From: a virus | Direction: 5' to 3' (one strand) | Length of the DNA: 22,976 bases | IMG/VR virus record: IMGVR_UViG_3300041955_000731 | Location: 1-22,976 of that record | Position numbers and translations under genes: made by a program | Notes under the pieces: model-generated | Database searches by the model: none | What the model was told of the DNA's origin: nothing | What the model saw: only the letters and a program-made list of their open reading frames with translations | Shown: in pieces, positions 10,834 to 22,976 of the stretch | Position numbering within the stretch: the stretch's first letter is position 1 | How the letters are laid out: each line of letters starts with the position of its first letter

Positions 10834-10940
10834 ACGTCTTGCCCCTCCTCCTGACAAAAGTTCTATTTCTAGCGGTAGGTCTGATGTTGGCGGTCTAGTA
10901 CTACGGCGACATCACAAGGGGCGGTCCGAAGGCCGCGTAA
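10830..10940 (+). pseudogene. Small transmembrane protein frame interrupted by an amber codon
   Basis: ATG 10830 overlaps the HNH stop (ATGA). It encodes 'MNVLPLLLTKVLFLAVGLML' plus 'AV', then TAG (10896-10898), then continues in frame as 'YYGDITRGGPKAA' to TAA 10938-10940. The TAA lies directly before the ribosome-binding stretch of the next gene, as expected if the full 36-codon frame was once, or is still, the gene. A single TGG-to-TAG change would explain it. The product would be one membrane helix with a short polar tail. Sequencing error, a recent nonsense mutation or amber readthrough are all possible, as is a genuine 22-residue peptide. Confidence 0.5.
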
Positions 10941-11675: not shown

Positions 11676-13181
11676 ATGCGGGAAGAAAACAGGATCATCC
11701 AATCGCTTTGGATCGGGAATGAACTCTCGCCCATGGAGCGTGGTTGCCTAAAAAGCTTCCTGCGCCATGGACACGAGTTTCATCTTTATCTTTACGCTCC
11801 CATGGGAGGGGTCCCTGAAGGTGTAAAAATCAAGGACGCTGAAGCGATTTTACCGCACAGCGAAGTCGCGCGTTATCGCACGCTGGCAAATTTTTCCGAC
11901 GTGTTTCGCTATCGCCTGATTCAGCAAACGCATATCCCTTGGTGGGTGGACCTGGACGTTTTCTGTTTACGGCCGCTTGATTTTGGGGACCCCTATGTAT
12001 TTGCAAGTGAGGATACCTATGCGCGCCTGGGCGTCAAACAATTGGTGAATGGCTGCATTATGAAAGCTGATCCGGACGGGCCGCTGCTGGCCGCAGCCCT
12101 CGCACGTTGTGCCCAGCAGGAACCGCAAAGGCCAAACGGAAAATTGCTTAAGGGGCTGCTCGCGTTTGGCCCCGAACTTCTCACGGACTTGACACGGGAA
12201 CTAAAGCTAGAGAAGTACGTTCACGCTGCCAACGTATTCAATCCGGTCGCGGTGGGCGAAACACCGCGAAAATTTCTTGATCCGCAAGGCTTCGATCCCG
12301 GAGACGCATATGCAGCCCACGCGTTTCGTTCGTGCTGGGGAAGGCAAGGCCGCGGGCCGGGTCCCCCGGGGTGTTTTTACAATAAACTGCTTGGAATACC
12401 CCGCCCGACTAAAGTGCTCATTGCAATTTTCACATGCGCTAAAAACAGTGCGCGACTGAACGCCCTGGAGCGCACATGGCTACCCGTGGCAAGGGGCGCG
12501 GGATATCGCGTCCAAATTTTTGATGGAGCGTATCTTGACGTACCGGACACTTACGCTTTTTTGCCGCTTAAAGACCGTGGAATTTTTAACTTTGCCCTCT
12601 CAACAGGCTACGCCGGCTTACTGAAGTGCGATGATGACACATTTCTTCGGATCTCTCAATTAGTTAAACTGCCATTAGAGGCGGTTGATTATGCGGGCGC
12701 GCGCTGCCGGGCAAACCAGCTTGGGCGCCCCTGCTCGGGCGGCAATGGATTGCCATACGAGCAATTTCCGGCCAGTTATCCTCCAGGGACATTTCCGCAC
12801 GACTATGCGCAAGGCGGAGCAGTGTGGTTTTCAAGGCGCGCGATTTCGATTTTGGCCGAAGCGGATTTTAACGGTGATTGGGCTTGCGACCGTTGGGCGG
12901 GAAATGCGCTTGCAGGCGTAGGAATCAGGTTGACCGCACTGCCGGAATTTGTATGGTGTGGGCCATCGACGGCGAAGCCGGTGACTCCATGGACGCGCGA
13001 TTACGTTGCGGCAACCCAATTACCAACACCGGAAACGCTCGACCAATTAAAAGTCAATCCGCTCTGTTTCTGTAAAACTGAAATGCCAATACCCGGAAGC
13101 GCCAATCGAAACACGTTCCCCACGGGGCATTCCGGCGCCTGTCATTGCCGATGGTGCGAGGCGGCAAGACGGGGAAAATAA
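11676..13181 (+). CDS. Two-domain glycosyltransferase (GT32-like + GT31-like)
   Basis: 501 residues, start ATG 11676 after AAGGAGG (11666-11672). Residues about 1-230 resemble GT32/capsular-sugar transferases: 'IIQSLWIGNELSPMER', then 'FSDVFRYRLIQQ' and the nucleotide-sugar DxD motif 'PWWVDLDVFCLRPLD' (Asp92, Asp94). Residues about 262-440 resemble GT31 beta-1,3-galactosyltransferases: 'VLIAIFTCAKNSARLNALERT', a DDD motif in 'LKCDDDTFLRI' (Asp319-321), and 'YAQGGAVWFSRRA'. The tail carries a Cys/His cluster 'HSGACHCRWCEAARRGK'. It probably adds two sugars in sequence to one acceptor. The acceptor is unknown: modified bases, virion proteins or host surface glycans are all possible. The methylase genes directly upstream make DNA a candidate, but no hydroxylase is seen. 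Confidence 0.83.
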   Translation: MREENRIIQSLWIGNELSPMERGCLKSFLRHGHEFHLYLYAPMGGVPEGVKIKDAEAILPHSEVARYRTLANFSDVFRYRLIQQTHIPWWVDLDVFCLRPLDFGDPYVFASEDTYARLGVKQLVNGCIMKADPDGPLLAAALARCAQQEPQRPNGKLLKGLLAFGPELLTDLTRELKLEKYVHAANVFNPVAVGETPRKFLDPQGFDPGDAYAAHAFRSCWGRQGRGPGPPGCFYNKLLGIPRPTKVLIAIFTCAKNSARLNALERTWLPVARGAGYRVQIFDGAYLDVPDTYAFLPLKDRGIFNFALSTGYAGLLKCDDDTFLRISQLVKLPLEAVDYAGARCRANQLGRPCSGGNGLPYEQFPASYPPGTFPHDYAQGGAVWFSRRAISILAEADFNGDWACDRWAGNALAGVGIRLTALPEFVWCGPSTAKPVTPWTRDYVAATQLPTPETLDQLKVNPLCFCKTEMPIPGSANRNTFPTGHSGACHCRWCEAARRGK

Positions 13182-13235: not shown

Positions 13236-15245
13236 ATGACAGATAAACCCCATCCCACGTGCGAGCAGATCGCGCGCAAGCTGTGGGGGTCACCACTAAA
13301 AACCGAACGCAGCGAACTTTATTGGCTCTGCCCACGGCACGAAGATCAGCATCCTTCATTCAAAATCAATCCCGAAAAAGACGTTTGGTTTTGCGGCCCG
13401 TGCGGGCTTCAGGGCGGTAATTGGTGGACACTGGCGGCGTTCGTCTCTGGCTTTGCGCCAGACGACAGGAAAAACATTGCTATTTGGCTAGCGGAAAAAG
13501 GCTTCGAGGGCGAAAGCGAAACCAAGCGCAAAAAGTCGAGCGCGCCGCGCGACCGCTTCGCCGATTCTGAGATTCTGCGTGAGTTTATCTATCGCGATGC
13601 GGTCGGCATACCGATTGCGAAGAAAACGCGGCGCGGATACGCCGATCCCAAGCGCGACCAGGAAATCAAAAAAGCAGGGCAAGCATTTAGGTGGTGGACC
13701 TGGCAAGAAAGCGCATGGACGCCCGGCTTGGGCAAAGACAAGCAAGCGGCGCTGCCCATGTATCGCGCGGGCGAGGCGTCGCAGGCGGGAAAAACGCGCG
13801 AAGAGCCGATAATCCTCACGGAAGGCGAACACGATGCCGAGGCGGCGGCATCATTGGGTTTGCAGAGTGTCAGCCCCGGTGGAACGGGGACGCTGCGCCA
13901 AAGGGATATTGAATTCCTCAAATGCCGGCACGTGGTGATTGTCGGCCACAGCGGATCGACGGCGGAGTTTGCCGACGCGCAAACCCGCGCCGCGCTGCTT
14001 CACAAATCCTGTGGTTCTGTCCGCCTGGTTTTCATTCCCAACTTCAAGGACTTGGCGCTTGCAATTGAAGCGGGATTTAGCCGCGACCTTTGGGATATAC
14101 TGCTCTCCGAAACCGAAGATTGGCATCCGCCCACCGGGCGGGAGCTATTTGCACAGACCCGCGCGGAGTTGCGGGCACATACGTGGATTTCAGAAGCACA
14201 AGAAATCACCTGTGCCCTTTGGGCGTGGCACACCCATGTTTTTGATGTTTGGGACGATACGCCATATTTGCATTTTACGTCGGCTGACGTAAGTTGCGGA
14301 AAAACCAAAACAATGAAGCTCGTGGGTTGCCTCTCGGCAAACCCCCGAGTGGCAGCCACAATCTCTTCCGCCGCAGTTTATCGAGTCATACAGTTGTGGC
14401 GCCCGACCTTGCTTTTCGATGAAGCGGACAACTTGATTAGAGGCGACTCCGAATTAGCACAAACAATTCTCGGAATCCTTAATTCTGGATCATCGGTTGG
14501 ATCTCCCGCCATCCGAATGGTTGGAACGGGAAGTAATATGATGCCCGAGGAATTTGACACGTTTGGCCCAAAAGCCTTCACAGCGGTAAATAAACTTCCA
14601 AGTTCGATTTCAAGTCGAAGCATTGTAATTAAAATGAAGCCGGCTCCCCCGAAAACACTTAAACCATTCCGCCTAAGAAAACTCCAAAAAGAATGCACAC
14701 CGTTACAGGCAGCGATTGGAGCATGGCTCAAACCCCGCAGGGCTGAATTGGAGTCGCTGGAGCCGGAGATTCCAGAAGCCCTACAATTCCGCGACGCTGA
14801 TATACACATGCCACTGTTAGCAATCGCACACCTCCTCGGTCAGGACATAGAAAAGCAAGCGACCGATGCGTTTTTAGAGATCTATGGCAAAACCAGCGAA
14901 GATGAGCGGAGCATTGGCCAGGAACTGCTGACCGATATTTGGAAGATCTGGTTGTATCCACAGGAAGAGCTCTTGACCGATCCGCCAGATAAGATTCAAT
15001 CCGATTATGTTCTAAACGAGTTATTAAAGATGCAGGATCGCATTTGGCCGAGATTTCACCGGTCAGGCCAGGGTCTAAATGCAAACGACCTATCACGCTT
15101 ACTGAAGAAATATGATATCAAGGCAAATCGAATATGGTTTGAGGATAAGCGATTACGCGGATATACGCTCGCCGAATTCATTCCAGTTTGGAAGTCGAGT
15201 TGTCCATGGTTAGAATTGCCTGGACATCCGACACAGAACACATAG
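13236..15245 (+). CDS. Replicative primase-helicase (CHC2 zinc finger, TOPRIM-like, DUF3631-type ATPase)
   Basis: 669 residues. Residues 32-56 form a CHC2-type zinc finger (Cys32-x2-His35, Cys53-x2-Cys56 in 'LCPRHEDQHPSF' and 'VWFCGPCGLQGG'). Residues about 188-270 resemble a TOPRIM fold with the Glu motif 'IILTEGEHDAEAAASLG', but the expected DxD motif reads 'VVIVGHSGSTAEF', lacking both acids. Residues about 340-560 resemble the DUF3631 helicase module: Walker A-like 'SADVSCGKTKTM', Walker B 'LLFDEADNLI', sensor-like 'FTAVNKLPSSISSRSIVI' and 'DADIHMPLLAIAHLLG'. It should unwind the replication fork and either synthesise primers or, given the altered TOPRIM, mainly act as loader/helicase. 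The iteron region directly downstream supports a replication role. Confidence 0.87.
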   Translation: MTDKPHPTCEQIARKLWGSPLKTERSELYWLCPRHEDQHPSFKINPEKDVWFCGPCGLQGGNWWTLAAFVSGFAPDDRKNIAIWLAEKGFEGESETKRKKSSAPRDRFADSEILREFIYRDAVGIPIAKKTRRGYADPKRDQEIKKAGQAFRWWTWQESAWTPGLGKDKQAALPMYRAGEASQAGKTREEPIILTEGEHDAEAAASLGLQSVSPGGTGTLRQRDIEFLKCRHVVIVGHSGSTAEFADAQTRAALLHKSCGSVRLVFIPNFKDLALAIEAGFSRDLWDILLSETEDWHPPTGRELFAQTRAELRAHTWISEAQEITCALWAWHTHVFDVWDDTPYLHFTSADVSCGKTKTMKLVGCLSANPRVAATISSAAVYRVIQLWRPTLLFDEADNLIRGDSELAQTILGILNSGSSVGSPAIRMVGTGSNMMPEEFDTFGPKAFTAVNKLPSSISSRSIVIKMKPAPPKTLKPFRLRKLQKECTPLQAAIGAWLKPRRAELESLEPEIPEALQFRDADIHMPLLAIAHLLGQDIEKQATDAFLEIYGKTSEDERSIGQELLTDIWKIWLYPQEELLTDPPDKIQSDYVLNELLKMQDRIWPRFHRSGQGLNANDLSRLLKKYDIKANRIWFEDKRLRGYTLAEFIPVWKSSCPWLELPGHPTQNT

Positions 15246-15545
15246 TTGTCCAGGTTGTCCATAGCGTTGTACTGCATTGATTGCATTATGATTATTCGTG
15301 GACAACTGACATATTTTCCGAGATAATAAATCCTTTGTCTTCAACATTGGACAACGTGGACAGCCCAATCCCCCTAAGAGAGATAGAAAGCACGATAAAT
15401 AGGCTTTTTTCGGGTGCTAATGGACAGCCGAGTTATTTGTTTTCATTGTTTTAAAAAAGTGTGCGTCCATATACCACAGGTTGAGCTGTCCACGCTGTCC
15501 ACTAGAATTGATACATATCATAATATCATTAATTATTGTAAATAA
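15200..15545. other. Candidate replication origin: TGTCCA/TGGACA iterons plus AT-rich tract
   Basis: TGTCCA or its complement TGGACA occurs at 15201, 15221, 15247, 15256, 15299, 15348, 15357, 15421, 15487 and 15496. Three pairs (15246/15255, 15348/15357, 15486/15495 as 7-mers) repeat at exactly 9 bp, close to one helical turn. Both orientations occur. An AT-rich stretch at about 15500-15545 follows and could be an unwinding element. The array begins inside the 3' end of the primase-helicase gene and extends through gene-free DNA. The 15246-15666 interval holds no credible gene. Iterons plus AT-rich DNA beside a replicase gene is the classic theta-origin layout, though transcriptional operators remain possible. 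Confidence 0.55.
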
Positions 15546-15666: not shown

Positions 15667-15825
15667 TTAGTCTAAGGGCCACAAAATCGCCACAATTAAA
15701 ATCGCAGCAGCAATGATGCTTACCAACCATGCAATTCTCAGGCCCACCTGGGACATCTTGCGACGACCGCAATAAAGGCAAAGGTATTGGGTATGCGGAA
15801 TTGTGAGACCACACTTACACGTCAT
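15667..15825 (-). CDS. 52-residue zinc-ribbon membrane protein, the only minus-strand gene
   Basis: On the minus strand, GAGGAGG (complement of 15834-15840) precedes ATG at 15825-15823, and the frame ends with TAA at 15669-15667. The product starts 'MTCKCGLTIPHTQYLCLYCG', so a Cys-x-Cys and Cys-x2-Cys pair probably binds zinc. It continues with 'RRKMSQVGLR' and a strong transmembrane helix 'IAWLVSIIAAAILIVAILWP'. The excellent ribosome site and coherent domain plan make it a convincing small gene. It diverges from the gene at 15994, sharing the control region between them, which hints at a distinct expression programme. Function unknown. Confidence 0.8.
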   Translation of the reverse strand: MTCKCGLTIPHTQYLCLYCGRRKMSQVGLRIAWLVSIIAAAILIVAILWPLD

Positions 15826-15887: not shown

Positions 15888-15907
15888 AATGGTACTAAAG
15901 TACCATT
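15888..15907. promoter_or_regulatory. 20-bp palindrome, probable operator
   Basis: AATGGTACTAAAGTACCATT has perfect 9-bp arms around AA. It overlaps the -35 box of the rightward promoter (TTGACG at 15906) and lies upstream of the divergent minus-strand gene. An additional GTAC half-element occurs at 15878-15881. Binding of a dimeric repressor here would block the promoter. The binder is unknown; the LuxR-type protein at 16497 and the winged-helix protein at 8155 are candidates. Confidence 0.6.
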
Positions 15908-16496: not shown

Positions 16497-16769
16497 ATGG
16501 ATGGCGTAGGTAGCAGAACTAAAACCAAGGGGCGGGGACTCACGCGAAATGAGCGATATTATCTGGCGTTTTTGTGCGCGGGACTCACCAATGAGGAAAT
16601 TTCCATCGCTATGCTCGCGAAGCGAAACACCGTGCAGCGCTGGACACAGAGCGTATATCGGAGGGTTATGGACGTGGAATCGATGGCGATTCCGGCCATT
16701 AAACCGAAGGTCGCTCGCCAAATCGTCGAACGGCGGAGACCTATGGCGATACGGAAAGGAATTATATAG
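16497..16769 (+). CDS. LuxR/GerE-type helix-turn-helix protein
   Basis: ATG 16497 is chosen because GGAAGG at 16486-16491 is correctly spaced and the conserved domain starts shortly after; the frame is open further upstream but reads through the folded non-coding segment with gene-unlike composition. 91 residues. 'LTRNERYYLAFLCAGLTNEE', 'ISIAMLAKRNTVQRW' and 'TQSVYRRV' follow the GerE pattern (L-T-x-R-E, G-x-T-N-E-E-I, A-x-R-N-T-V). The C-terminus is basic ('KPKVARQIVERRRPMAIRKG'). It lacks a receiver or ligand domain, so it is a bare DNA-binding module, likely a transcription regulator of this region. Confidence 0.72.
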   Translation: MDGVGSRTKTKGRGLTRNERYYLAFLCAGLTNEEISIAMLAKRNTVQRWTQSVYRRVMDVESMAIPAIKPKVARQIVERRRPMAIRKGII

Positions 16770-17112: not shown

Positions 17113-17274
17113 ATGACCGTTATTTGTATGGATTGCAAAAAAAAGATCAGGGAAAAATTCCCGATAGGCGAGGGACCGGTCTCGCACGGCATTTGCGATG
17201 AGTGCTTGGAAAAACGCTTGGCCGACCTTCGGTCGGTGGTGATGGTGGCACAAGGATATCCACCGAAACCCTAA
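17113..17274 (+). CDS. 53-residue zinc-ribbon-like protein
   Basis: ATG 17113 after GGAGGAAT (17101-17108); stop TAA 17272-17274. The sequence holds two Cys-x2-Cys knuckles, 'VICMDCKKKIREKF' (Cys5, Cys8) and 'GICDECLEKRLADL' (Cys28, Cys31), spaced as in treble-clef or zinc-ribbon domains. A basic C-terminal helix follows. Tiny zinc proteins of this kind are common among phage early genes and often bind host transcription or DNA proteins; that is family knowledge, not shown here. The DNA at 17222-17236 also forms a hairpin with a TTC loop inside the coding sequence. Confidence 0.78.
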   Translation: MTVICMDCKKKIREKFPIGEGPVSHGICDECLEKRLADLRSVVMVAQGYPPKP

Positions 17275-17304
17275 CTTCGGCATGCGCCCCCATCGAGGGA
17301 TGAT

Positions 17305-17514
17305 ATGAATAACAATGTAACGCATGCCGAAATTATTGAGTTCGCGCGACGGCATGGAATCACTTACTGTGCACCCTCGCCGGCATTTCGGGTGAGTTGG
17401 CGCGCGAGATATAAACAGTCGGAAGAAGAGCATATCGCTGAATTGGCGAGAGTACCAGAGTTTCTCGCCCTAGGGCAAAAAATAAAACGGCATAATGCGG
17501 GCCGGAGGAGATAG
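17305..17514 (+). CDS. Small basic hypothetical protein
   Basis: 69 residues from ATG 17305 with GAGGG upstream at 17294-17298. It begins 'MNNNVTHAEIIEFARRHGIT', with a helix-turn-helix-like start, and ends in a basic tail 'LGQKIKRHNAGRRR'. There are no metal ligands. It overlaps a possible second small basic frame (17495-17662). Function unknown. Confidence 0.62.
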   Translation: MNNNVTHAEIIEFARRHGITYCAPSPAFRVSWRARYKQSEEEHIAELARVPEFLALGQKIKRHNAGRRR

Positions 17515-17662
17515 TAAGAGAGCAATCGGACGGGCACTGTCCGGCCCCAGGGCTTTCAATGAACGGGAAGCTCGGTTGAGACTGAAGAGGAAAGCTGAAC
17601 GGCGAAGATTGAAAGTCAGAAATCGTGCGGCTGAAAGGGGGTTTCAATGGACGCGGAATTGA
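17495..17662 (+). CDS. Possible 55-residue, highly basic protein
   Basis: ATG 17495 to TGA 17660-17662 would encode 'MRAGGDSKRAIGRALSGPRA' followed by 'FNEREARLRLKRKAERRRLK' and 'VRNRAAERGFQWTRN'. More than a third of the residues are Arg or Lys, as in nucleic-acid-binding peptides. It overlaps the previous gene by 20 bases and the ParB-domain gene by 16, and otherwise fills a 132-base gap. There is no strong ribosome site, and CGGAC/GTCCG (17526-17530/17538-17542) could instead be a hairpin. Treat as tentative. Confidence 0.38.
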   Translation: MRAGGDSKRAIGRALSGPRAFNEREARLRLKRKAERRRLKVRNRAAERGFQWTRN

Positions 17663-18420
17663 AGTTTCATCCGGCAGCGGCGATCTTCCCAATGCTGGAC
17701 GAAGTAGAACTCACTCAACTGGCCGAGGACATCAAAGAGAACGGACTGATCGAGCGGATCTCGCTTTACGAGGGCATGATTCTGGACGGCCGGAACCGTT
17801 ACCTGGCCTGCCAGCAGGCCGGCGTCGAGCCCAGATTTGATGAACTGCCGTTCGTCAACGATTGCCCGGTGACCTGGGTTATCAGCAAGAACCTTCATCG
17901 TCGCCACCTAACGGTGAGCCAGCGCGCCATGGTTGCAGCCGAAACGAAAGGTCCAATCATGGAAGAGGCTCGAACGCGCATGGGTCATCCACGCCAGGAT
18001 AAAACAGGTGTGGCCAAAAGGCCACCGCTGGTAAGTCTTGGAAAATCAAGAGATATTGCCGGAAAACTTCTCGGAATTAGTGGCAGGAGTGTTGAGCGGG
18101 CGACAAAGGTACTAGAAGCTTCCCCCGAACTGGCCACAGAAGTTAAGGCCGGTGACAAAACCCTAAGTGAAGCCCTGCGCGAAATCGCGCCGCCCGCGCT
18201 TGGCAAGCGGGATAAAATGCTGGCGAACGCGGCCCAGAATAAGCTAGGAATGTTCCTCGCAGAGACTAACGGTGGAATACTCGGCCTGGAATCCGTTAAT
18301 TGGGATGCGTGGTTCAGCACACACACAAAAAAAGACGGTAAGGACGTTCTCAGGGATTTACTCGATTTTTCAAAACGACTCCGGTCGTTCATTTCTCAAT
18401 TCAAGAGGAGGATACAGTGA
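17647..18420 (+). CDS. ParB-like nuclease / DNA-binding protein 1
   Basis: 257 residues from ATG 17647 with AAAGGGGG just upstream. The N-terminal ParB-type domain shows 'FPMLDEVELTQLAEDIKENG' and 'YEGMILDGRNRYLACQQAG' (DGRNR at 47-51), then 'SKNLHRRHLTVSQRAMVAA' at 80-98. A helix-turn-helix follows at about 130-160 ('SRDIAGKLLGISGRSVERAT'), and the remainder is helical and basic. Family members include partition CTPases, transcription regulators such as Noc/KorB, and DNA nucleases. No ParA partner is visible, so partition cannot be claimed. It overlaps the second ParB-like gene by GTGA. Confidence 0.82.
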   Translation: MDAELKFHPAAAIFPMLDEVELTQLAEDIKENGLIERISLYEGMILDGRNRYLACQQAGVEPRFDELPFVNDCPVTWVISKNLHRRHLTVSQRAMVAAETKGPIMEEARTRMGHPRQDKTGVAKRPPLVSLGKSRDIAGKLLGISGRSVERATKVLEASPELATEVKAGDKTLSEALREIAPPALGKRDKMLANAAQNKLGMFLAETNGGILGLESVNWDAWFSTHTKKDGKDVLRDLLDFSKRLRSFISQFKRRIQ

Positions 18421-19190
18421 ACATCAAAGACGAAGGCAAGTATAAATTACTCAGAATACGGGCAGATAAATTAATCATTCACCCGCTTGTGCAGAGGGGA
18501 ATCGTTAAAGCTCACCTGAATCGCTTAGCTGAAAATCTTGACCTTGATGCGCTGGGCCTGATTCATGTGGTTACGTACAGGGGCAAACTTGCCGTGATAG
18601 ATGGCCAACACAGGGTCCTTGCGTTGCTTGAAAGGGGACTGGGTGAGTGGGAAGTCCTAGCGATGCACCATTTAGACATTTCAACGGTTTCCATGGCCTC
18701 CAGCTTGTCATGCAAGGTGAACGGAGAGCACGTAGGTTGGACAATCTACGATCACTTTCAGCAATTACTTTTACAGGGAGATTCGATTGCCCTTGAGGTC
18801 CAGTCAGAATGCCAAAAGCGCGGCCTGAAGATTACGCGCGGCCACGCCGATAGTTCCGTTTGTGCGATCAAGTCATTGTTAAGGGCTCGCGGAATGGGGA
18901 CACTGCCAGATGCCCTTGATTTGCTAATCGCTGCTTATGGGGCGGGAACCGACGGACTGGAAGGAAAAGTGATCGAAGGTGCAGCCTTACTGTTTCAAAC
19001 GCACAAGCAAATAGATCGAAAAGCCCTTCGGGAACACTTAGCCAAAGAGACCGGTGGTGGCGCTCGCATCATCGGAGACGGTCGGAGTTTTGCATCGCTC
19101 AATGGAGGCAGCGTAGCTCGCGGAGTGGCAAATGCCATGATAATGATCTACAACAAAGGACGCCGATCATTGAAACTGAAACCGATTTAA
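18417..19190 (+). CDS. ParB-like protein 2 (DUF6551-like)
   Basis: 257 residues from GTG 18417, with GAGGAGG at 18405-18411. 'IHPLVQRGIVKAHLNRLAEN', 'IHVVTYRGKLAVIDGQHRVL' and 'ALLERGLGEWEVLAMHHL' mark the ParB/sulfiredoxin-like fold, with DGQHR at 62-66. The rest ('SCKVNGEHVGWTIYDHFQQL' and a long helical C-terminus) resembles the ParB-related family known as DUF6551 in phages. No separate helix-turn-helix is obvious. Translational coupling to the first ParB-like gene suggests the two act together, perhaps as a heteromeric DNA-binding or nuclease pair. The biochemical role is unknown. Confidence 0.75.
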   Translation: MNIKDEGKYKLLRIRADKLIIHPLVQRGIVKAHLNRLAENLDLDALGLIHVVTYRGKLAVIDGQHRVLALLERGLGEWEVLAMHHLDISTVSMASSLSCKVNGEHVGWTIYDHFQQLLLQGDSIALEVQSECQKRGLKITRGHADSSVCAIKSLLRARGMGTLPDALDLLIAAYGAGTDGLEGKVIEGAALLFQTHKQIDRKALREHLAKETGGGARIIGDGRSFASLNGGSVARGVANAMIMIYNKGRRSLKLKPI

Positions 19191-19202: not shown

Positions 19203-19301
19203 ATGAAAAAGAAAATGCGCATGACGATTTCTAGACACGAAAATATCTGTGGAAAACTCAAAATAATACTTGACTTCCTTTGGGCAGTTAAGTATTATTG
19301 A
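19203..19301 (+). CDS. Possible 32-residue peptide
   Basis: ATG 19203 after GGGGGAA (19194-19200) to TGA 19299-19301 encodes 'MKKKMRMTISRHENICGKLK' then 'IILDFLWAVKYY'. A good ribosome site is present, but its 3' half coincides with the promoter and inverted repeat of the RNA gene below, so the base sequence there may be constrained by regulation instead of coding. Confidence 0.3.
   Translation: MKKKMRMTISRHENICGKLKIILDFLWAVKYY
19262..19299 (+). promoter_or_regulatory. Strong promoter framed by a 10-bp inverted repeat
   Basis: TTGACT (19270-19275), 17-base spacer and TATTAT (19293-19298) nearly match the sigma70 consensus. AATAATACTT (19262-19271) and AAGTATTATT (19290-19299) are perfect 10-bp inverted arms 18 bp apart; the right arm contains the whole -10 box and the left arm reaches the -35. 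A dimeric regulator on these arms would control initiation. Transcription should start near 19305. Confidence 0.65.
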
Positions 19302-19304
19302 TGC

Positions 19305-19420
19305 TGTAAGAAGATAGAAATGATCATAGGCAGCGCAAGTGAGACCATGGCAATCCGGGTAGAAATGCCGGAAAGTAAATCGCAGCCAAACGGTCCCTAA
19401 CTTGCGCTGCCTAATTTTTT
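19305..19420 (+). ncRNA. Candidate small RNA with 5'-3' closing helix and intrinsic terminator
   Basis: From the expected start near 19305, the transcript contains AGGCAGCGCAAGT (19328-19340), perfectly complementary over 13 bp to ACTTGCGCTGCCT (19400-19412), followed two bases later by six T (19415-19420). Inside, GAGACC (19341-19346) pairs with GGTCCC (19392-19397) with one mismatch, and CCGG (19355-19358) can pair with CCGG (19368-19371). No credible gene occupies this interval. A promoter, closed fold and terminator in one direction make a complete small-RNA gene of about 115 bases. I do not recognise a known RNA family. Confidence 0.6.
19400..19420 (+). terminator. Rho-independent terminator of the small-RNA gene
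   Basis: The right arm of the 13-bp helix is followed by AATTTTTT. The stem is unusually closed over a 59-base, partly folded loop, so the terminator stem also forms the RNA's closing helix. Confidence 0.6.
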
Positions 19421-19486: not shown

Positions 19487-19720
19487 ATGAGACTAGCAGA
19501 GCAAAAGCGCCGGAAAAAACAGCTTGAACTGCACTTCCTTTCCAACCGTTTTTATGACGATGCGGTAGCGCTGAAAAACGGCAAGAACGATGCGCGGAGA
19601 TCGCCAAACTGGAGAGGCATTGTGCGGGGCGCTGGGGAACGAGCCGGTCTAAGCCAGAGACAGATCTCGGAATTAATTAGAATTTTTGCGGAAGGGATGA
19701 GCGCCAAATCCAGAATCTGA
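19487..19720 (+). CDS. Small basic helical protein before the packaging genes
   Basis: 77 residues from ATG 19487. The start 'MRLAEQKRRKKQLELHFLSN' is strongly basic. The C-terminal half 'GERAGLSQRQISELIRIFAE' looks like a helix-turn-helix. It ends four bases before the HNH gene. No Cys or nuclease motif. It could be a DNA-binding partner of the packaging HNH protein or terminase, which is an inference from position only. The stretch 19421-19486 holds nothing I recognise. Confidence 0.6.
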   Translation: MRLAEQKRRKKQLELHFLSNRFYDDAVALKNGKNDARRSPNWRGIVRGAGERAGLSQRQISELIRIFAEGMSAKSRI

Positions 19721-19724
19721 GCGT

Positions 19725-20027
19725 ATGCCAACGCTAAATAAGCGGGCGTGCCCATTTACAGGATGCGTGCGCACAGATCCGCATAGGCACGACAATTTCC
19801 GGCCAGGCTCGGCGGCTAGGGGTTATGGGCGAAGGCACCAACGCTGGCGGAAAATGGTTTTGGCGCGCGATCCAGTTTGTATGATGTGCCAGGAAGCGCT
19901 GAGCACGGATGCGGACCATATCATCCCACTCTCACGGGGCGGTGATTGGTCGCTCGAAAACGGGCAGGGTCTTTGCCACGCGTGTCATACAAAGAAAACG
20001 TTCGCGGAGAACGGCAATAGAAGTTAA
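19725..20027 (+). CDS. HNH endonuclease of the packaging module
   Basis: 100 residues. The core is Cys52-x2-Cys55 ('DPVCMMCQEAL'), Asp64-His65 ('TDADHIIPLSRGGD'), Asn79 ('LENGQGL') and Cys84-x2-Cys87-His88 ('LCHACHTKKT'), a complete HNH site with zinc knuckle. Two further Cys (9 and 14) lie in the N-terminal 'RACPFTGCVRTD'. Short HNH proteins directly before the terminase genes are typical of HK97-like cos phages such as HK97 itself (gp74), where they stimulate terminase cleavage at cos. Its position here, one gap before the small terminase, fits that role. Confidence 0.9.
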   Translation: MPTLNKRACPFTGCVRTDPHRHDNFRPGSAARGYGRRHQRWRKMVLARDPVCMMCQEALSTDADHIIPLSRGGDWSLENGQGLCHACHTKKTFAENGNRS

Positions 20028-20096: not shown

Positions 20097-20131
20097 GATT
20101 TGAGATTTGAGATTTGAGATTTTAGATTTAA
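20097..20131 (+). repeat. Five tandem heptamers before the small terminase gene
   Basis: GATTTGA at 20097, 20104 and 20111, then GATTTTA at 20118 and GATTTAA at 20125, end eight bases before the ATG at 20140. Tandem sites are the form expected for small-terminase binding, but the same heptamer at 6341 and in bacterial intergenic repeats argues it may simply be an acquired repeat. Confidence 0.8.
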
Positions 20132-20139
20132 AACCGGAC

Positions 20140-20760
20140 ATGCGCGGCAGAAAGCCAAAACCACTCGAAATGCGGAGGCGTGAAGGAAACCCCGGGCGCA
20201 GACCATTGCCCGAGGATGTACCCGAGCCCGCGGCCGCGATCCCCAACTGTCCGCCACACGTGCAAGGCGAAGCGCGGCGAGAATGGCATCGCATCGGAAT
20301 CGAGCTTGTGCGCCTGGGGCTAGTGGCGAGAATAGATAAGGCCGCCCTCGCCATCTATTGCCAGCTTTGGCAACGCTGGATCGACGCTGAAAACGCCGTA
20401 CGCGAGCTCGGGTTAATCGTCACCAACGCTCAACTTCGCGCTTACGTCTCGCAAAAACTCCTGACCGAAAAGGGCGCGGAAGGGATCGCCAATGTCGCCG
20501 CAAAAAAAGAAACCGAGGCGGGATTTCTATTCCCTGGACTGGCCGCGGAAGAAGAGGATAAGAGCTATCCCGGAAAAAACCCATTTTTGAGCATTGCCGA
20601 ATCTTGCATGGATCGCATGAAGGCGTTCTTGGTTGAATTTGGCATGACACCCAGTTCCAGGGCGCGGGTAAAATCCACGCCCGCCGAAACGACCGATGAA
20701 ATCGAAGCCGCACTCCAGGCCGGAAGCCAAGACGAGACGGAACCATCCCACCTACAATGA
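20140..20760 (+). CDS. terS: Terminase small subunit, P27 family
   Basis: ATG 20140 is chosen because the frame upstream to 20107 only translates the heptamer repeat; no clear ribosome site is seen. 206 residues. 'MRGRKPKPLEMRRREGNPGR' followed by 'RPLPEDVPEPAAAIPNCPPH' is the classic P27 N-terminus. 'EARREWHRIGIELVRLGLVA' and 'DKAALAIYCQLWQRWIDAEN' form the family's helical core. It recognises the phage packaging site and loads the large subunit. The C-terminal 60 residues are acidic and variable. It overlaps the large terminase gene by 65 bases, suggesting translational coupling. Confidence 0.9.
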   Translation: MRGRKPKPLEMRRREGNPGRRPLPEDVPEPAAAIPNCPPHVQGEARREWHRIGIELVRLGLVARIDKAALAIYCQLWQRWIDAENAVRELGLIVTNAQLRAYVSQKLLTEKGAEGIANVAAKKETEAGFLFPGLAAEEEDKSYPGKNPFLSIAESCMDRMKAFLVEFGMTPSSRARVKSTPAETTDEIEAALQAGSQDETEPSHLQ

Positions 20761-22444
20761 CCGAACCACGGAATATGCCCGCAAAGTCTGCGCCGGGGAG
20801 ATCGTTGCTGGCCGGCTGGTGCGTCTGGCTTGCAGCCGTCATTTGGCTGATCTTGATAGCGGTCCCGCTCGCGGTTTGCGTTTTAATCTTGCGCGGGCTG
20901 ACCGCGCCTTTCGCTTTTTTGAAGAATTACTGGTTCTTGCGGAAGGGCAATTCGCCGGCCAACCATTCAAGCTCCAGCCCTGGCAAGCGTTTATCATTGG
21001 ATCAATCTTCGGCTGGCTGCGTGTGGACGGAACGCGCCGTTTCCGACTCGCTTACATTGAGGTCGGTAAAGGCAACGGCAAATCTCCCATGGCCGGCGGA
21101 ATCGGGCTTTACGGGCTCGTGGCTGATAACGAGCCTGCTGCTGAGATATACAGCGCCGCGGTCACTAAAGAACAAGCAAGGATACTGTTTCGCGACGCTG
21201 AGCGAATGCGTGAATCAAGTCCTCAACTCTCTAAACTGATTCGCTCGCACGTCAATAATTTAAGCTGCGCGAAGACAGGGAGTTTTTTTCGAGCAATATC
21301 TAGTGAAGGCAGGTCATTGGACGGCAAGCGCGTCCACATGGGCCTGATCGATGAAATCCACGAGCACCCCTCGGCTATCGTCGTAGACAAGATTCGGGCG
21401 GGCCTGAAGGCGCGCCTCAATGGACTGATTTTCGAGATTACAAACAGTGGGTTTGACCGGGAATCCGTCTGCTGGCAACACCATGAGGCCAGCCGACAAA
21501 TCCTGGAAGGAAAAACCGAAAACGATTCATGGTTTGCCTATATTTGCGGGCTTGACGAAGGAGACGACTGGAAGACAGATAAAAACTGCTGGGTGAAGGC
21601 CAATCCAAACCTGGGAATCTCTATTCCAGAAAGTTATCTACTCGAACAAGTGGAAGAGGCTATCCAGATTCCCGCCAAGGAAAACATCGTTGCGCGGCTG
21701 AACTTCTGTGTTTGGACGCAATCGAGCAAGCGCGCCATCGCGCAGGACGTCTGGAAAGGAACAGAGAGGGAATACACCGCGAGAGACCTCGAAGGCCGCG
21801 AGTGTTTTGGCGGGCTAGACCTGGGCTCGGTGAGCGACACATGCTCGCTCACCCTGATTTTTCCACGCGATGATAGCTGTCCCGAATGGCGCTTGCTGAC
21901 CTGGTTTTTCTGTCCTGAGGCGGAAGTGGTAAACCGCGCCAAGAAAGGCGTGGCCAACTACGCGTTATGGGCCGACGAGGGCGCACTGATTCCCACGCCG
22001 GGAAACGTCACTGATTACCGCTATATCCGCAAATTTTTGAGTGGCGTAAATTCCGACGGCGTAAAAACGGAAGAGCCGTGCCTGGCCGACCGGTTTGATA
22101 TTAAGGAAATAGCCTACGACCGATGGAACGCCACCCAGCTTGTGATTGACCTGCAAGGCGACGGGTTAAATATGGTGCAATTCGGCCAGGGCTTCGCCAG
22201 TTTCCAGGCTCCGGTACGCGATTTTCTGAGGATGGAAATGGCCGGGGAGCTCCATCACAACGGGAACGGCATGATGGACTGGCAGATCGGCAACCTGGTA
22301 CTAGCACAGGACCCTGCAGGAAACCAGAAACCCGACAAAGAAAAAAGCGGGGACAAAATCGATGGGCCGGTAACGCTCATTATGGCACTTGGACGTGCCC
22401 TGGCATATGTAGCCGCTCCGCAACCCGGGATCTCGATCTTATGA
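20696..22444 (+). CDS. terL: Terminase large subunit, HK97-type
   Basis: 582 residues starting at ATG 20696 inside the small-subunit gene; the conserved N-terminus 'YARKVCAGEIVAGRLVRLAC' requires this start or one nearby. ATPase motifs: Walker A 'EVGKGNGKSPMAGG' (122-135) and Walker B with acidic pair 'MGLIDEIHEHP' (about 214-224). 'FKLQPWQAFIIGSIFGWLR' precedes them. The RNase H-like nuclease domain begins at 'FGGLDLGSVSDTCSL' (about 371), with its metal-binding Asp. It pumps DNA into the prohead and cuts the concatemer. This Terminase_1 subtype usually accompanies cos-type ends with 3' or 5' overhangs. Confidence 0.95.
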   Translation: MKSKPHSRPEAKTRRNHPTYNDRTTEYARKVCAGEIVAGRLVRLACSRHLADLDSGPARGLRFNLARADRAFRFFEELLVLAEGQFAGQPFKLQPWQAFIIGSIFGWLRVDGTRRFRLAYIEVGKGNGKSPMAGGIGLYGLVADNEPAAEIYSAAVTKEQARILFRDAERMRESSPQLSKLIRSHVNNLSCAKTGSFFRAISSEGRSLDGKRVHMGLIDEIHEHPSAIVVDKIRAGLKARLNGLIFEITNSGFDRESVCWQHHEASRQILEGKTENDSWFAYICGLDEGDDWKTDKNCWVKANPNLGISIPESYLLEQVEEAIQIPAKENIVARLNFCVWTQSSKRAIAQDVWKGTEREYTARDLEGRECFGGLDLGSVSDTCSLTLIFPRDDSCPEWRLLTWFFCPEAEVVNRAKKGVANYALWADEGALIPTPGNVTDYRYIRKFLSGVNSDGVKTEEPCLADRFDIKEIAYDRWNATQLVIDLQGDGLNMVQFGQGFASFQAPVRDFLRMEMAGELHHNGNGMMDWQIGNLVLAQDPAGNQKPDKEKSGDKIDGPVTLIMALGRALAYVAAPQPGISIL

Positions 22445-22976
22445 GAATGACATCCGATCAACCCATGCCCTTAATGCGATTCCTCGCCTCGAATTTTCAG
22501 TGGCCGGGTTTGCGCGGAATCGCTCGCTGGGCTTGGGAAGGTCGAACGTCACTTGAAAATCCCCAAACCCCGCTATCGTATCCCGCCGAATGGTTACTCG
22601 ATATTTTTAATGGTGGGCGCACCGATTCAGGTTTGCGCGTCTCCGAGTTAACCGCGCTGCAAGTGCCCGATGTGCTCGCTTGTGTCACGCGGATTTCCGG
22701 GGCTATAGCCGGCCAACCCATCAAGATTTACGAGCGGATAGAGACGGGCTCAAATATTGTCCGGCACTCGAAGCGCCTGGCGATCGAGCATCATATGTTC
22801 GACGTGCTCCGCTATCGCCCGAACGACGAGATGACGCGGGCAACATTTGTGCGCACATTTGTGTGCCACATGCTGCTTTGGGGAAATGGTTATGCGGAAA
22901 TCCAACGTGATGCCGCAGGGCGCCCGGTAGCCCTGTGGCCACGCAACCCGACGCGGACCCGCCCGCGCCGGCTTCT
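22441..22976 (+). CDS. Portal protein, HK97-type, 3'-partial
   Basis: ATG 22441 overlaps the terminase stop (ATGA) and the frame is open to the window edge, giving 178 residues. The N-terminal helix-rich lead ends near 'WLLDIFNGGRTDSGLRVSEL'. Then come 'VPDVLACVTRISGAIAGQPI' and 'LLWGNGYAEIQRDAAGRPVA' plus 'LWPRNP', both conserved in HK97-family portals ('A...aslPl.vy' and 'l.GNaYa.i.rd..G.p..L.pl.P'). The portal is the dodecameric ring for DNA entry and tail attachment. Gene order HNH, terS, terL, portal is standard for this phage group. A protease and major capsid gene would be expected next, beyond the window. Confidence 0.92.
   Translation, partial: MRMTSDQPMPLMRFLASNFQWPGLRGIARWAWEGRTSLENPQTPLSYPAEWLLDIFNGGRTDSGLRVSELTALQVPDVLACVTRISGAIAGQPIKIYERIETGSNIVRHSKRLAIEHHMFDVLRYRPNDEMTRATFVRTFVCHMLLWGNGYAEIQRDAAGRPVALWPRNPTRTRPRRL

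Follow-up and report, generated by a model that had tools for sequence, protein, structure and literature searches.

A palindromic promoter and a rod-shaped terminator between the ParB-like and packaging genes of an uncultured phage: a candidate late-operon leader

Gene neighborhood

The window analyzed here, that is, the whole stretch of DNA under study, is an entire IMG/VR record of 22,976 bases and is probably a fragment. Toward its end, two adjoining genes for ParB-like proteins are followed by the gene for a 77-aa orphan protein (p77), an HNH endonuclease gene and a packaging module, the portal gene of which runs off the contig (Table 1). All these genes are co-directional, and the second ParB-like gene is the last recognizable one before a predicted short RNA whose terminator separates the ParB operon from the p77-HNH-TerS-TerL-portal series. 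This gene order agrees with an earlier note on the same DNA, written from the letters alone, which had placed a small-RNA gene between the ParB-like genes and the packaging module. Given the placement of the terminator between the operons, transcripts started at either of two promoters, P1 upstream of the ParB operon or P2 behind it, must cross the terminator to reach the packaging genes.

ParB1 and ParB2 homologs also adjoin in loci L042, L075, L073, L082, L093, and L099, which suggests that the two genes form a unit conserved in phage operons. In mycobacteriophage Hades, a cro-like gene is followed by a ParB2 homolog with a similar-sized neighbor and, together with the side-by-side arrangement in the other loci, this indicates that the ParB operon is probably early. 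The scanned genes upstream of the RNA match ParB-like families or none. Among the family matches of the window proteins scanned there was no Q-type antiterminator, with some small ORFs lying outside the scan and the contig being a fragment, and no RinA/ArpU-type activator was recognized in the window.

Several other features lie upstream of the RNA. A 501-aa ORF (11676-13181) beside DNA methyltransferase genes reads like a glycosyltransferase-type protein. The AT-rich gap after the primase gene (15205-15501) holds a cluster of TGTCCA/TGGACA repeats and a 21-nt inverted repeat (15348-15368/15481-15501, 90%), and looks like an iteron-type replication origin. On the minus strand, divergent from the ParB operon promoter, a 52-aa ORF (15667-15825) with a perfect Shine-Dalgarno sequence encodes what looks like a zinc ribbon combined with a membrane helix. 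Finally, a 15-nt inverted repeat (17272-17335, 93%; TAACTTCGGCATGCG / CGCATGCCGAAATTA) spans the start of an ORF at 17305 and might mask the start codon or control its use.

Table 1 Features of the P1–P2 region and of the adjoining packaging genes
Feature	Coordinates	Strand	Remarks
P1 palindrome	15888-15907		AATGGTACT-AA-AGTACCATT; overlaps P1
Promoter P1	15906-15934	+	TTGACG-17-TAGTAT; upstream of ParB operon
Two adjoining ParB-like genes (parB1, parB2)	17647-19190	+	
ParB-like protein 2	18417-19190	+	phrog_1033, 1.7e-10
32-aa ORF	19203-19301	+	SD GGGGGA; crosses P2 palindrome; doubtful
Candidate operator, perfect 10-bp inverted repeat	arms 19262-19271, 19290-19299		AATAATACTT / AAGTATTATT; half-sites AATRRTACT
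Mirror-image promoter, weaker	19263-19291	-	TTAACT-17-TATTAT; 9/12 consensus; product of P2 palindrome
Promoter P2	19270-19298	+	TTGACT-17-TATTAT; sigma-70-like; 10/12 consensus positions
Presumed start region	19305-19314	+	TGTAAGAAGA; same 10-mer at same distance past -10 at P1
Predicted terminated RNA, ~115 nt	19305-19420	+	MFE -42.9
26-aa ORF inside predicted RNA	19320-19401	+	covers left arm and loop; stop 19399-19401 at right-arm edge
Intrinsic-terminator stem, perfect 14-bp arms	19327-19413; arms 19327-19340 / 19400-19413	+	
Terminator tail	19414-19420	+	A, then U6 (TTTTTT 19415-19420)
p77, 77-aa orphan, first gene past terminator	19487-19720	+	
HNH endonuclease	19725-20027	+	
Packaging module	20137-22976	+	TerS to 20760; TerL 20696-22444; portal from 22465, off contig end

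Two promoters with a common palindromic signature

The earlier note had described a near-consensus promoter wrapped in a perfect 10-bp inverted repeat and pointing at a segment that ends in six T, and each of these elements was recovered. In P2, the -35 box (TTGACT, 19270-19275) and the -10 box (TATTAT, 19293-19298) are separated by a 17-bp spacer, and the inverted repeat, whose arms stretch imperfectly to 17 nt (88%), covers the first -35 bases and the entire -10. Dinucleotide shuffling of the 121 bp around P2 gave a repeat of at least 10 bp in 2 of 3000 cases; over a whole 23-kb shuffle 0.78 inverted repeats of 10 bp are expected, and hence such repeats are not rare window-wide.

Only one other comparable palindromic promoter, P1, is present in the window, and a palindrome as long as that of P1 appeared in 4 of 3000 local shuffles. 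The palindromes of P1 and P2 have AATRRTACT half-sites in common, and AATNNTACT occurs in the window only within the P2 palindrome (19262-19299) and within that of P1. Furthermore, the 10-mer presumed to mark the transcription start has just two occurrences in the window, one after the -10 of each promoter. Agreement between half-sites as good as this was seen in 1.4% of random-arm trials (~0.014), and an in-register identity of 10 nt in 5e-5 (0.005%) of shuffles, both statistics being post hoc, as the pattern was noticed first. GTAAGAAG is present a third time, at 10937, but no promoter accompanies it there, and it was set aside.

The common half-sites, together with the in-register 10-mer, argue that both promoters are real, that transcription starts near the 10-mer and that the two answer to a common regulator; judged on these motifs, P1 and P2 are probably co-regulated members of one regulon. 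The palindrome and the signature common to P1 likewise support the view of the earlier note that the promoter is probably regulated. Candidates for the regulator are the two ParB-like proteins and a small HTH protein (16497-16769), the matches of which to LuxR/sigma-like proteins are weak. According to the promoter listing of the window, no further promoter-like site of P2 quality is found on the plus strand between 19298 and 20100; the next one, at 20100, lies inside a low-complexity run.

The terminator and the predicted RNA

The transcript expected from P2 would run into a hairpin that makes up most of its length. The earlier note had the ends of the segment pairing over 13 perfect base pairs; the helix is indeed perfect, with 14 pairs rather than 13, and its arms can be extended to 17 nt at 94% identity. 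With arms 30-100 nt apart and a T-rich tail as the criterion, dinucleotide shuffling of the whole window (60 rounds) gave a best arm pair of 9 bp, versus the 14 observed. No second arm pair of at least 11 bp with a T tail was found in 720 kb of both-strand sequence (the window plus TerL-related phage loci), and in ~2.3 Mb, again of both-strand sequence and with ParB-related loci included, the other cases of at least 11 bp were AT-rich and came from two loci only. Consistently, the segment 19304-19422 has an MFE of -45.6 kcal/mol, compared with -26.1 +/- 3.6 for shuffles (z -5.4).

In the predicted fold, ~22 nt at the 5' end are unpaired, and the 14-bp closing helix encloses two short inner helices (GACC/GGUC and UGGC/GCCA) and a UCCGG hairpin. 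The inter-arm loop of ~59 nt is long by the standards of intrinsic terminators. In folds predicted for the nascent chain, the inner hairpins come before the closing helix, which zips up only as 19404-19413 is made; such an inner-to-outer order, complete just as the U-tract is synthesized, suits a terminator. The initial transcript contains several 4/6 matches to -10-like pause elements (for example, TAGAAA at 19315), which are not distinguishing. As read from the DNA, P2 and the terminator are a real, well-formed promoter–terminator unit, ordinary in kind; what sets it apart is how its terminator is shaped and the promoter signature that it shares.

Another account would take the hairpin for a strong terminator and no more, which ends the ParB operon and keeps the packaging genes insulated, with a promoter that is fortuitous or serves another purpose. 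The hairpin is strong, carries U6, and ends 223 nt past the stop codon of the co-directional ParB-like gene, as such an account would have it; nonetheless, the half-sites of P1 and the in-register start sequence at P2 are unexpected of a fortuitous promoter, and we consider this account improbable.

Coding capacity offers another angle. The earlier note held that nothing coding fits the interval, which stands insofar as coding signal and family support are lacking, although two small ORFs are present, one of them with a plausible Shine-Dalgarno sequence. The latter, the 32-aa ORF, matches no family, and its codon score (0.18/codon) falls within the random range (median 0.09, 90th percentile 0.28). 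The 26-aa ORF inside the predicted RNA has neither coding signal nor family support, scoring 0.01/codon, which is background. Its placement over the left arm and loop, with the stop codon bordering the right arm, is what one would expect of a leader-peptide attenuator, in which translation melts the stem and covers the right arm, allowing read-through into the packaging genes. However, its ribosome-binding site is weak, its codon score is at background, and chance alone gives an open frame of 26 codons about three times in ten, so that a leader peptide appears to us highly improbable.

Searches for homologs

No known RNA family was matched, in line with the earlier note, which had recognized none: a scan of Rfam (6S, tmRNA, phi29 pRNA and others) gave nothing at the gathering score, and the best of the weak matches, to a microRNA family (17.1 bits, E 0.69), is attributable to chance. 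The exact arm pair was found in none of 2.9 million viral contigs and none of 84,980 genomes. In the same collections, searches with an exact 24-mer and with three gapped patterns of the stem returned nothing or chance matches only; the three loose-pattern matches (L122-L124) look like coding DNA without the structure of the RNA, and their number fits the chance expectation. Searches of phages, plasmids, and E. coli with the RNA by blastn yielded nothing convincing, and a single-sequence covariance model run over 99 loci and 18 whole records matched only the window itself.

Scans with single proteins (ParB2, primase, TerL, and p77) recovered relatives for TerL only, in 37 loci at 36-53% identity, and the RNA is absent from all 37; in related phages, the DNA ahead of the terminase genes showed no comparable promoter–terminator leader. 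The genome contigs, scanned with a stem pattern and with TerL, gave zero matches. The phage is thus isolated in the databases searched, with no TerL relative closer than 36-53%. An alignment-based scan with ParB2 reached 80 loci, the nearest being L042 (41% identical), where no such hairpin lies downstream of ParB2. Two further candidates were dropped: a 14-bp helix with a T tail in L017/L019, which lies inside an open reading frame, and a 14-nt match in L002/L003, which has no surrounding hairpin.

These searches bear on the possibility that the segment is a MITE-like inverted-repeat element, TA-GGCAGCGCAAGTGAG...CTAACTTGCGCTGCC-TA, which would have inserted behind a promoter. Its extended terminal arms and the TA on both outer edges would fit such an element. 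Against it, the window contains no second copy of the RNA or of the arm element, exact arms do not recur in viral or genome contigs, the plasmid and E. coli matches are unconvincing, and the combination of U6 behind the arms with nested inner helices is the pattern of a structured RNA; we regard insertion as very improbable.

More serious is the possibility that the unit encodes a dedicated trans-acting sRNA that would bind a protein or else pair, through its unpaired 5' end (UGUAAGAAGAUAGAAAUGAUCA) or its apical loop, with messages of the host or the phage, its site before the packaging genes being incidental. In favor of an sRNA, the full unit of ~115 nt has its own promoter and terminator, the 5' tail is accessible in the fold, and phage sRNAs of similar size are known, among them StxS, which derives from a late-promoter leader (PMC7873438). 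Conversely, no homolog was found in the collections searched and hence there is no sign of conservation, and no outstanding complementary target exists within the phage: apart from its own stem, the longest antisense pairings there are 13 bp, each with two G-U pairs and on the strand opposite the genes, none of them convincing. We accordingly rate a dedicated sRNA as unlikely, if still a contender.

A candidate late-operon control point

The simplest reading, which we favor and to which we give about an even chance, is that P2 and the terminator form a control point of the late operon, that is, a leader/attenuator. A sigma-70-type P2 would start a transcript near 19305, probably under the same phage regulator as P1, and the polymerase would normally halt ~115 nt on, at the rod-shaped terminator (19327-19420), so that a stable RNA of small size is freed. 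For p77, HNH, TerS, TerL, and portal to be expressed late would then need either read-through (antitermination) or very high initiation combined with leaky termination, and the terminator would also stop transcripts entering from the ParB operon. The promoter sequence, the palindrome, the structure of the terminator and the order of the genes are read from the DNA; we infer that the unit is transcribed, that P1 and P2 obey a common regulator, that the genes past the terminator belong to the late class and that read-through is under control. One point against a leader is that half of the late genes lie off the contig.

The earlier note had envisaged a self-contained small-RNA gene. Its promoter, closing helix, and terminator all hold, whereas self-containment and action in trans are less secure: since the RNA lies directly upstream of the packaging genes and co-directional with them, with no comparable promoter between the terminator and 19487, a cis-acting leader/attenuator fits at least equally well. 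For the packaging-RNA and anti-defence roles also raised there, nothing positive was found. A further idea, which we consider quite improbable, is that the rod-shaped RNA is itself functional and represents a new class of phage RNA, in which the terminator is the whole body and P2 is co-regulated with the early operon; for example, it could act as a decoy that occupies an RNA-binding or defence protein of the host, or it could signal antitermination in cis, as HK022 put does.

If the leader/attenuator reading is right, an uncultured phage with a P27-type terminase would have, in a promoter and its terminated leader, a switch between ParB operon and packaging genes that operates without a recognizable Q. 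One of the neighboring ParB-like proteins or orphan genes could then be an antiterminator or late regulator of a new kind, and the short RNA could be an sRNA, like StxS in Stx phages.

Comparison with known systems

In the late control region of lambda, a promoter yields a short terminated RNA unless an antiterminator carries the polymerase past the terminator, and in lambda-type systems the gene for a Q-type antiterminator usually lies immediately upstream. The unit described here resembles lambda PR'-tR' in that a promoter is followed, ~100-220 nt on, by an intrinsic terminator, between a delayed-early-type operon and late genes (here, genes taken to be late) on the same strand. Lambda PR'-tR' frees a short RNA while the late genes are off, and the same is proposed here. 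It should be noted that no Q homolog or other Q-type antiterminator was recognized among the proteins scanned; therefore, we do not class the unit as lambda-type, and the likeness is one of anatomy only. Besides, the genes downstream are for packaging, not lysis, and most of the RNA is taken up by the terminator hairpin, a rod of 87 nt. The operator-like palindrome flanks both -35 and -10, whereas lambda qut lies partly between them (PMC6266700).

A similar spacing is known from Pseudomonas phage YA3, where a terminator 224 nt behind the late promoter has been described in lambda-like terms (PMC7326022). Control by antitermination in Stx phages has a by-product, in that PR'-tR' is transcribed and terminated constitutively; the resulting short RNA is stable and works as the sRNA StxS (PMC7873438). 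StxS is both leader-derived and an sRNA, and thus the leader and sRNA readings of the present unit are not exclusive. Both RNAs are short transcripts between a phage promoter (for StxS, the late promoter) and its terminator; however, for StxS, processing by RNase E, binding to Hfq and a set of targets are known, whereas the RNA here is predicted from sequence, and no sequence similarity between the two was found (Rfam, phages, E. coli genomes).

The location of P2 upstream of HNH and TerS also invites comparison with a different mode of late control. Some phage late promoters upstream of HNH/terS are driven by activators such as RinA. P2 occupies the same position, but a terminator separates it from the genes. 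RinA has been described as an activator of transcription with a part in packaging (PMC9867676).

The palindrome of P2 has one further consequence, namely, the weaker promoter-like site on the opposite strand, which makes a bidirectional start possible, with a leftward transcript that would be antisense to the last part of the ParB-like gene. Warman et al. described bidirectional promoters that result from DNA-sequence symmetry, in which the opposite starts have one common -10 (PMC12825309). The site opposite P2 likewise stems from symmetry, but the two -10 elements are located at opposite ends of the palindrome.
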